Assembly (NCBI GenBank): GCA_003133325.1
Contig: PKXA01000022.1
Coordinates: 1-64,000 of the forward strand
Source: Acidimicrobiaceae bacterium
Lineage (GTDB): Bacteria; Actinomycetota; Acidimicrobiia; Acidimicrobiales; RAAP-2
Direction: 5' to 3'
DNA length: 64,000 nt
Part shown: positions 17,369-23,275 of the stretch, one piece after another
How the letters are laid out: every line of letters begins with the position of its first letter
How positions within the stretch are numbered: the first letter of the stretch is position 1
Translations under genes and position numbers: made by a program
Notes under the pieces: model-generated
The model's database searches: none
What the model was told of the DNA's origin: nothing
Seen by the model: only the letters and a program-made list of their open reading frames with translations

Positions 17369-17428
17369 TCCACGCTTATCCTGTCCGTGCCCGTGGGGGT
17401 GCGCGTCGGCAGTAGCGTGTCGCCCGGT

Positions 17429-18739
17429 ATGGCTCATCGTATAGAAATCGAACTCACCAGCCGGACAGACGAGACCACCTGGACGTGGCGCGCCGCAGGG
17501 GCCAAGCAACCCCGCGGCACCGTGGATGCCTCGTTGGTTCCTGACGGGACCGCAGCCGGAGCTGTCCTGAGGGCCGAGGTCGAGTCCACGCTCGACGGCA
17601 CGACTGTGGTGGCCCTGCTCCCGCCCAAGGGAAAGGCGGCCCCCAGGAAGATCGAAACGATCGAAGTGGTCGGCGTTCCCACCTCCGGACCCGACGTCAA
17701 TGTCGTTCTGGCCTCCAAGTCAAAGGGCCGTCGCCGTGACGAACGGCCCGGCGGCGGTCGTGACGAACGGCCCGGTGGAGGTCGCGATGGCGGTCGTGGA
17801 CCCTCCGATCGCCGACCTCGCACCGATTCAGCCGAACGAGGGCCCCGCCGAGATGGCGGAGGTCGCACAGGGAGCGGGGACGGTCCCAGCTCCGATAAGC
17901 GTCGCGAACGCCCCGCTCGCCCCGGGGGTCATGAGGGTGGCCATCGCGAGGGACCACGCCGGCCGGCCCAGTCGACGACCTACCGCAACGCTGCGCTCGC
18001 CACCCTCAAACCGGAGCAACTCCCCGTGGCCGAGCAGTTGCTGCGGGGGGGCATCCCGGCCGTACGCCAAGCCATTGAAGAGCAGAACGCCCGGGCACGA
18101 GCCGAGTCCCGGACAGAAGTCACACCGGGCCCGCTTCTCACCCTGGCCGAGCAGTTGCTTCCGATCGTGAACCTGGCGGCGTGGAAGGACCGCGCTTCGA
18201 TGGCACGAACCGAAGGCAAAGATGTTCCCCTTCGGGAGTTGCGCTCCATCGTCGCCTCGGCGTCAACCGTCACCCTCGACGAGGAGGGCCGTGAGTTTTC
18301 GACTGCCCTCCGTGCTGCCCTGGATGTGCGGGTCACGGCACTTCGGGACGGCTGGGTTGAACGCATCACAATCGCCCTGGACGAGGGACGGGTGGCCGAT
18401 GCCCTCCGTGTCTCAAATCGTCCTCCCGAACCGGCCACCCGCCTGTCGGCCGAGCTCGCCGTTCGCTTGGCGGACTCGGCCAGTCGTGCGATGTCGTCGG
18501 ATTCCACCCCGGCCGACTGGTTGGCGGTTCTCGAGGTGGTCATCGATTCGCCGGTCCGGCGCAACGTGAAGCCGGCGGGAATCCCCACCGGTGCCGACGA
18601 AGCCCTCTTGGTGGCGGCCAACAAGGCATCGGGATACGTGCCTGAACTGGCCAAGCTCCTCGGCCTTCCCATTCCTCCCCCACCCGGGCCTCGTCGTCCG
18701 GTGCCGGCCCGAACCACCCCGGCCCGGCGTCGCCCCTAA
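17429..18739 (+). CDS. Unknown protein with RGG-rich linker
   Basis: A 436-aa protein of no recognised family. Residues 1-95 look like a compact beta-rich domain (RIEIELTSRTDETTWTW...TIEVVGVP). Residues 100-190 are a disordered Arg/Gly/Pro-rich linker with repeated RDERPGGG. The remaining 240 residues are mainly helical (LPVAEQLLRGGIPAVRQAIEEQ) and end in a Pro/Arg-rich tail. The basic RGG linker suggests nucleic-acid or RNP association; this is inference. I preferred the ATG at 17429, where the conserved-looking domain begins, over the GTG at 17387; neither has a clear Shine-Dalgarno. Confidence 0.7.
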   Translation: MAHRIEIELTSRTDETTWTWRAAGAKQPRGTVDASLVPDGTAAGAVLRAEVESTLDGTTVVALLPPKGKAAPRKIETIEVVGVPTSGPDVNVVLASKSKGRRRDERPGGGRDERPGGGRDGGRGPSDRRPRTDSAERGPRRDGGGRTGSGDGPSSDKRRERPARPGGHEGGHREGPRRPAQSTTYRNAALATLKPEQLPVAEQLLRGGIPAVRQAIEEQNARARAESRTEVTPGPLLTLAEQLLPIVNLAAWKDRASMARTEGKDVPLRELRSIVASASTVTLDEEGREFSTALRAALDVRVTALRDGWVERITIALDEGRVADALRVSNRPPEPATRLSAELAVRLADSASRAMSSDSTPADWLAVLEVVIDSPVRRNVKPAGIPTGADEALLVAANKASGYVPELAKLLGLPIPPPPGPRRPVPARTTPARRRP

Positions 18740-21616: not shown

Positions 21617-23275
21617 TCAGGGACGTGAAGTAATTTTGTTGACATCCTGCCCGGCACGCTTCTCTTCGGCCCGTCTCTCTGATTCCAACCGCTCCAGGTC
21701 CTGTCCGCCGTAGTCGACGTAGGACATGGCTTCGGCCAAGAGCCGGTGGCCGGCCTGGTCAGCGATCAGCCGATGCATCTCCTGAGCCACCCAGCGGTAG
21801 GAGGGATGGCCCTGCGGGCCCGACCGCAGTTCGGTGAGGTGCATGGCCTCGCGGGCGTTCATCTGCATCGAATATCGGATCCGATAGGCCAACGCCACCG
21901 CGTAGGCGGATTCGTGGGGGAATGCCGGCGCCAACGCGGCGTAGAGGTCACGGGATCTCTCGAGGGACGCGGCGTAGCGGACTGCCACTCCCGCCTCTTC
22001 CACCGTCTCGGGAATGCCGTATCCGAGCGACGGACCCAACGGCTGCCACTCGATGGTCAACATGCGGTGGCGCTGCAGATCGCGGAAGGCCCCGTAGTCG
22101 CTCACCACATCGAAGCGGTAGTCGGTTCGCTCGAAGGCCCGCCCGGGCCGATGGCGCCGGTTGGTGCGATCCCCCACATACGAACGAAGCAATGACCGGC
22201 GGTCCTCGACCCCCATCAGTCCGACCCGGCGGACCACCTCTTCTTCCGGTCGACTGGTGAGTGGCGCACAGATGGCGGCGATCACCTTTTCCTCGCCATC
22301 GGGATCGAAATCGAGCAGGGTGACCGAAGGTGCGCCCGAGGGGCCTGCGATCGGATCTTCATCGGCCACGCACAGATCGGGAAAGAATGTTTGCACCAGG
22401 CGTCCGGTGTCGGTGTGGGTCTTCTCGAGATAGGCCGACCACGCCACTCCCCGCTCAGCCCGATCCACCCGTTGCAAGAATGACGGAATGACCTTTCGGA
22501 GTTCATCGAGCATCATGTCCGCATACCGGCGGGCTTCGGGGAGTGGGTGTGACCGCATCCGTAGCAGCAGCATCTCGTAGGACTGCCCGGTGCCGTACAC
22601 ACCCACATTGGACAGCGACCCGGCAGGGAGCAGGCCCCTCAGAGAATCGAGGGCCTTGGCCCTCACTGCCTGTCGGTGGACGAAATCCGAGTCGCCGGCC
22701 TGGCGCGGATGCCGCCGGGTCAGCCAGGCCTGGACCTCCACCAGGAGTTCGGCGTAGGTGTCGAACATACGGTCCATGTCACCCACGTAACGGGCGCCCA
22801 AGGAAGAGTCGAGCAGGCCCGGGTCCCGGTAGTACCGGTAGTGCCCGGTGGAGAGTCGGTTGTCGTAGCCGATATACCGGGTGGATTGCTCGAGGTAGGC
22901 CATCAGCCTTCCCCGCTCGAGGACCTTGGTGAGGACATTGGAGGCCTGCTCGCAGGCCAGGTGCACCCCGCCGAGCTGAGCCACCGAATCATCGCCGTAC
23001 TCGAAAAACACCTTTTCGTACAGTTGTTCAGCCCGTTCCACTCCTACCGTGGCATCCACCGAGGCATCCCCGGAGATGTCCAACTCGCCCACGAATTCGT
23101 CCAGAAACAGCCGGCGCAGGCTTTTCGGAGAGCGCGAATACCGGGCAAACAGTGCGCCTTTCACCACCTCGGGCAGATTGACCAGGGCGAACACCGGTAA
23201 GTCGAGGTTGGTGACATACCGGCGGAGAATGTCTTCTTCGTCGGCGCTAAAGGTTTCAACGGCGTAAGGGAACAT
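21617..23275 (-). CDS. Two-domain ThyX-like protein
   Basis: A 552-aa protein built of two ThyX-like halves, about twice the usual ThyX length. Flavin-dependent thymidylate synthase carries RHRxxSxxxxSxR. The N-half has RGRLMAYLEQSTRY (residues 121-134), keeping the SxR part but with His to Gly and Ser to Ala changes. The C-half has RHRMLTIEWQPLG (402-414), keeping RHR but losing the SxR part. The C-terminal MNAREAMHLTELRSGPQGHP also resembles the ThyX tail. Thymidylate synthesis is therefore doubtful; it may bind flavin and nucleotide for another role, or form a composite site. It sits 12 bp downstream of helY. Confidence 0.75.
   Translation of the reverse strand: MFPYAVETFSADEEDILRRYVTNLDLPVFALVNLPEVVKGALFARYSRSPKSLRRLFLDEFVGELDISGDASVDATVGVERAEQLYEKVFFEYGDDSVAQLGGVHLACEQASNVLTKVLERGRLMAYLEQSTRYIGYDNRLSTGHYRYYRDPGLLDSSLGARYVGDMDRMFDTYAELLVEVQAWLTRRHPRQAGDSDFVHRQAVRAKALDSLRGLLPAGSLSNVGVYGTGQSYEMLLLRMRSHPLPEARRYADMMLDELRKVIPSFLQRVDRAERGVAWSAYLEKTHTDTGRLVQTFFPDLCVADEDPIAGPSGAPSVTLLDFDPDGEEKVIAAICAPLTSRPEEEVVRRVGLMGVEDRRSLLRSYVGDRTNRRHRPGRAFERTDYRFDVVSDYGAFRDLQRHRMLTIEWQPLGPSLGYGIPETVEEAGVAVRYAASLERSRDLYAALAPAFPHESAYAVALAYRIRYSMQMNAREAMHLTELRSGPQGHPSYRWVAQEMHRLIADQAGHRLLAEAMSYVDYGGQDLERLESERRAEEKRAGQDVNKITSRP

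Follow-up and report, generated by a model that had tools for sequence, protein, structure and literature searches.

The gene described here lies within a 64,000-nucleotide stretch of contig PKXA01000022.1 from an Acidimicrobiaceae bacterium (assembly GCA_003133325.1), which as a whole is called the window below, and it encodes a ThyX-like protein of double length. The gene, its parts (with the equivalent residues of the T. maritima or M. tuberculosis (Mtb) enzymes) and its upstream neighbour are as follows:

21617..23275, minus strand: double-length ThyX-like gene (ATG start, 552 codons, stop included)
22481..23038, minus strand: N-half Thy1 domain, residues 80–265 (PF02511, 60.7 bits, above the cut-off; hhalign against canonical ThyX, E 8.5e-10)
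21758..22318, minus strand: C-half Thy1 domain, residues 320–506 (PF02511, 51.6 bits, above the cut-off; hhalign against canonical ThyX, E 5.9e-13)
22874..22915, minus strand: N-half motif RGRLMAYLEQSTRY, residues 121–134 (E129, S131, R133 and Y134 kept; R78 and H79 positions degenerate)
22034..22072, minus strand: C-half motif RHRMLTIEWQPLG, residues 402–414 (RHR kept; ExSxRY part replaced or deleted)
22637..22639, minus strand: R213 (T. maritima R147 position), N-half only (kept without exception in the 111 bacterial and 5 phage proteins; the C-half has Y458 there)
21851..21853, minus strand: R475 (T. maritima R165, Mtb R190, FAD phosphate contact), in the C-half (conserved without exception across the bacterial family but not in phages)
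21824..21826, minus strand: R484 (T. maritima R174, Mtb R199, dUMP activation), in the C-half (no exception among the 111 bacterial and 5 phage proteins)
23288..25357, minus strand: upstream neighbour, HelY-like helicase (DEAD and DSHCT), 12 bp from the double ThyX gene on the same strand

The double-length protein belongs to the ThyX superfamily (Pfam Thy1, PF02511): the whole protein scores 113.6 bits against a cut-off of 24.8 (E 1.2e-32), and each half passes singly. It is not a canonical ThyX, because it reaches 45.1 bits with TIGR02170, the NCBI curated ThyX equivalog, whose cut-off is 87.9, and because the motif is not found in a single domain. Canonical ThyX (T. maritima TM0449, M. tuberculosis ThyX; PF02511, TIGR02170) is a one-domain protein of about 220–250 aa, whereas the double ThyX is about 550 aa long and consists of two fused domains, neither with the whole motif; the fold of each half and the position of the motif are alike in the two. 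We infer a duplication because both halves match ThyX, rather than each other, and their weak mutual likeness in a profile comparison (E 0.018) indicates that the duplication is old. A phmmer search of the PDB with the double-length protein alone gave zero matches up to E 1, and a profile built from the alignment of its family matched ThyX weakly there. The AlphaFold model of the protein (mean pLDDT 85.5, pTM 0.85) has as its best PDB matches T. maritima ThyX chains, with TM-scores to target of 0.65–0.75 and 18–21% identity (top match E 2.4e-6, TM-score to target 0.73), and the protein is predicted on this model to have the ThyX fold. The best viral structure matches found with Foldseek are double proteins of 461 and 491 aa, matched over their full length with an rmsd of 12–15. 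An artefactual fusion or a pseudogene was considered and ruled out: the reading frame is unbroken in those relatives that were examined, and relatives are encoded by 504 stretches of public genomes.

A first reading made from the sequence alone (the sequence-only reading) had set the gene beside helY and a tat/proteasome run, and the neighbourhood is as it described, with TatC, TatA-like and Pup ligase genes lying further upstream of the HelY-like helicase gene. Of 80 related loci, 70 have a helY homologue on the same strand as the gene, and the surroundings are those of a conserved housekeeping region, not of a mobile element. Elsewhere in the window, a 450-aa ORF at 17387–18739 (plus strand) has no Pfam match at 1e-5, and the stretch that surrounds it is otherwise well annotated.

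That same reading held that the N-half keeps SxR(Y) and has a degenerate RHR, and that the C-half keeps RHR without the SxR part. Residue equivalences were assigned by profile-profile alignment against T. maritima ThyX (whose reference sequence aligns end to end with PDB 1kq4 with one mismatch near the C-terminus) and 30 canonical ThyX proteins; RGRLMAYLEQSTRY and RHRMLTIEWQPLG both fall at the motif position, and both statements stand. A full RHRxxSxxxxSxR motif was looked for and is absent anywhere in the 552-aa protein, and no homologue was found to be a proven ordinary ThyX enzyme. A second RHR at residues 374–376 (RRHRPGR) has no motif after it. The stretch around it, RRHRPGRAFE (residues 373–382; 22130–22159), is invariant or near-invariant in bacterial C-halves and is not kept in phages; it is possibly a FAD or folate contact that replaces the HxTxxE segment.

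Conservation was read from an alignment of 111 bacterial relatives and 5 phage proteins (Tunturi_5, Ma-LMM01, Yong XC32, My-WqHQDG and BONAISHI), the phage proteins being about 25% identical to the bacterial ones. Throughout this alignment the T. maritima R78, H79, R80 and R174 positions are kept in every C-half as R402, H403, R404 and R484, and the E86, S88 and R90 positions in every N-half as E129, S131 and R133; the Y91 position is Y134 in the N-halves, with Phe in one phage as the single exception. At the R147 position all N-halves have Arg (R213), and almost every C-half has Tyr. In the N-half the reciprocal positions have drifted: the R78 position holds W, R, D, N or Y and the H79 position mostly G. 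The C-half shows nothing in the profile alignment that corresponds to S88, R90 and Y91. The complementary split of the motif is not chance, because the retained residues are invariant in all of these bacterial and distant phage proteins, bar the one Y-to-F change; and since the complementary residues are kept in bacteria and phages and the reciprocal positions vary, the split is a property of an old family and not of this gene alone. Residue 95 of the N-half (22991–22993; T. maritima His53 position) is Asp in 111/111 bacterial proteins and His in 5/5 phage proteins; crystal structures exist for an H53D mutant of the T. maritima enzyme (4kar, 4kas). Where the Mtb enzyme has Arg87, a further dUMP contact, the N-half by position has Asn113, and T. 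maritima likewise has no Arg there.

The sequence-only reading had also suggested looking for another ThyA or ThyX in the genome. The genome was searched (96.6% complete in 133 contigs, so that absence is not absolute), and no ThyA, no other Thy1/ThyX, no DHFR and no thymidine kinase (TK) was found in it; a dCTP-deaminase-like gene, a candidate source of dUMP, is present. Across 297 genomes of the phylum, whose counts are not phylogenetically independent, so that Fisher p-values carry no weight here, the double ThyX occurs in 88, and canonical ThyX in none of those 88. A ThyA match is present in three of them (G130, G200 and G231), each partial, split or weak, and 58 of the 88 have neither a ThyA match nor TK. 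A recognised ThyA or ThyX match is present in 190 of the 209 genomes that do not have the double ThyX. DHFR accompanies a strong ThyA match in 31/31 genomes versus 3/88 double-ThyX genomes (G200 is counted in both groups); the three are G259, with a match below the cut-off, and G130 and G200, in which the ThyA pieces are present too. This rarity of DHFR beside the double ThyX is the pattern expected if dTMP comes by ThyX chemistry, which yields THF and not DHF. The nearest relatives of the protein, up to 97% identical, are in Acidimicrobiales soil assemblies.

Several individual genomes in this survey deserve mention. The split or partial ThyA genes of G200 (C39:1968-5141) and G130 (C181:2540-3746) adjoin a DHFR gene, and they may have been acquired recently, be decaying, belong to a phage or come from contamination. 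G040 and G293 have additional copies or pieces of the double gene; in G040, a bin that is 5% contaminated, contigs C71 and C5 carry two full-length double ThyX genes whose products are 58% and 55% identical to the query. Five loci (L151–L155, in G052, G039, G009, G076 and G163) have one weak Thy1 match each in genomes with neither the double protein nor canonical ThyX. In L153 and L155 this reads as a divergent ThyX of one domain, whose motif is THRxFSRNSASSRAIP, in an ORF of about 300–376 aa; like the double ThyX it is a ThyX relative with an altered motif, but the motif (THRxFSRNSASSR) is changed and not divided over two domains. It seems that at least three types of ThyX are in use in the phylum.

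The phage homologues have the same two-domain architecture and complementary motif split, and PHROGs already classes them as a ‘thymidylate synthase’ family (PHROG 36506, 491 positions, with Ma-LMM01 gp020, Tunturi_5 and Vibrio phages). Apart from the low identity (above), they differ from the bacterial proteins in the His that stands in place of Asp95 and in having the R475 position unconserved. The Tunturi_5 gene adjoins a dCMP deaminase gene, with a dUTPase close by, and Ma-LMM01 gp020 has been called a ThyX homologue and is transcribed together with the genes for ribonucleotide reductase and dUTPase (PMC5780444). With the double-length protein alone as query, IMG/VR gave zero matches.

How can two domains with half a motif each be related to the ThyX active site? 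That site is built from residues of three subunits: in the Mtb enzyme RHR 95–97 and R199 belong to subunit A, R87, S105, R107 and Y108 belong to subunit C, and S71 and R190 of subunit B touch FAD (review, PMC6514825). Similarly, Ser88 has been assigned to monomer B and Arg182, the R174-type Arg, to monomer A (PMC3498832). R174 functions in dUMP activation, and S88, R90 and Y91 assist methylene transfer, mutants of these three being slow (PMC8316439). In the double-length protein both sets are present, RHR with R174 in the C-half and S88/R90/Y91 in the N-half, so that the main dUMP and FAD contact residues of canonical ThyX are recovered when the two halves are pooled. The published partition between subunits is the same as that between C-half and N-half, which supports a single composite site for each pair of N- and C-half. 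The third subunit's FAD contacts are oddly divided, with the Ser in the N-half (S97, the Mtb S71 position) and the Arg in the bacterial C-half (R475, the Mtb R190 position), a position that is unconserved in phages.

We propose the following scheme. In homotetrameric ThyX a site draws the FAD-binding RHR and the R174-type residues from one subunit and Ser88/Arg90/Tyr91, in the dUMP loop, from its neighbour; after duplication and fusion, the C-half would have taken the RHR/R174 role (R402, H403, R404 and R484) and the N-half the dUMP-loop role (E129, S131, R133 and Y134), the former acting as subunit A and the latter as subunit C. The N/C interface would then form one complete site and the reciprocal site would be dead, and two chains would make a pseudo-tetramer for which two active sites are expected, in contrast to the four sites per four domains of canonical ThyX. 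The chemistry would be as in ThyX, with dUMP, methylene-THF and NADPH giving dTMP and THF via FAD, and DHFR would be dispensable because this reaction releases THF; the host, like hosts of canonical ThyX, is without ThyA and DHFR.

We put at roughly three in four (0.76) the probability that this gene is the organism's only recognised thymidylate synthase, working by flavin-dependent ThyX chemistry with two fused and diverged ThyX domains. We infer the activity, the domain interface and the number of sites from sequence and distribution, on which a thymidylate synthase is the most likely identity. It could instead be a thymidylate synthase whose composite site is put together otherwise, between chains, from three domains in another pattern, or with the second site partly used (for FAD or NADPH binding), and the bacterial N-half does retain R123 and usually R239, with S97 invariant. 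However, one complementary set alone is conserved across the phage and bacterial homologues and the reciprocal set varies, and we consider such an arrangement unlikely. Less probable again is a protein that has lost synthase activity and gained a new role, with dTMP supplied by an unrecognised enzyme or by salvage. Neither half has a complete motif, the score lies below the curated ThyX cut-off, and 28 of the 88 carrier genomes have a TK match, all of which would fit such a loss; on the other hand, 60 of the 88, the organism's own genome among them, have no TK match, the main ThyX catalytic residues survive divided between the halves, the carriers have no DHFR (with the three exceptions above), as expected of ThyX users, and the phage copy adjoins dCMP deaminase.

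A role as a flavin-dependent methylase with another pyrimidine substrate, comparable to the UMP/dUMP methylase PolB of Streptomyces cacaoi, seems very improbable to us: PolB (4p5b) is among the structural matches of the model, but such a role would leave the genome without a thymidylate synthase and does not suit the conserved helY and tat neighbourhood. The sequence-only reading had offered two explanations for its observation, one active site divided between the halves or neofunctionalisation after duplication. Division of the site is favoured, since the subunit partition of solved structures matches it and nearly all carriers are without another recognised synthase, and neofunctionalisation is disfavoured against it by the same residue partition and genome distribution. 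For the class as a whole we think it likely, with slightly less confidence than for the identity of this gene, that the double ThyX is an obligate fused heterodimer whose ThyX domains have each lost the half-site provided by the other, and that it is the sole synthase found in most Acidimicrobiia, as well as in several further lineages of actinobacteria, and occurs also in large phages.

The filing of the phage version as a thymidylate synthase was known already; no description of a bacterial double ThyX with a split site, nor of any tandem, fused or duplicated ThyX or of ThyX in Acidimicrobiia, was found in the open-licence literature searched. Thymidylate synthase is an essential enzyme, and the absence of ThyX from animals makes it a drug target. 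With a fused ThyX and a divided site, each half of a multi-subunit site could be mutated separately, something that the homotetramer rules out. Such an enzyme would further account for the dTMP supply of a large part of the Actinomycetota that has neither the standard ThyX motif nor a passing score with the curated ThyX model or the ThyA model and, if true, would be a natural case of subfunctionalisation inside one enzyme active site.
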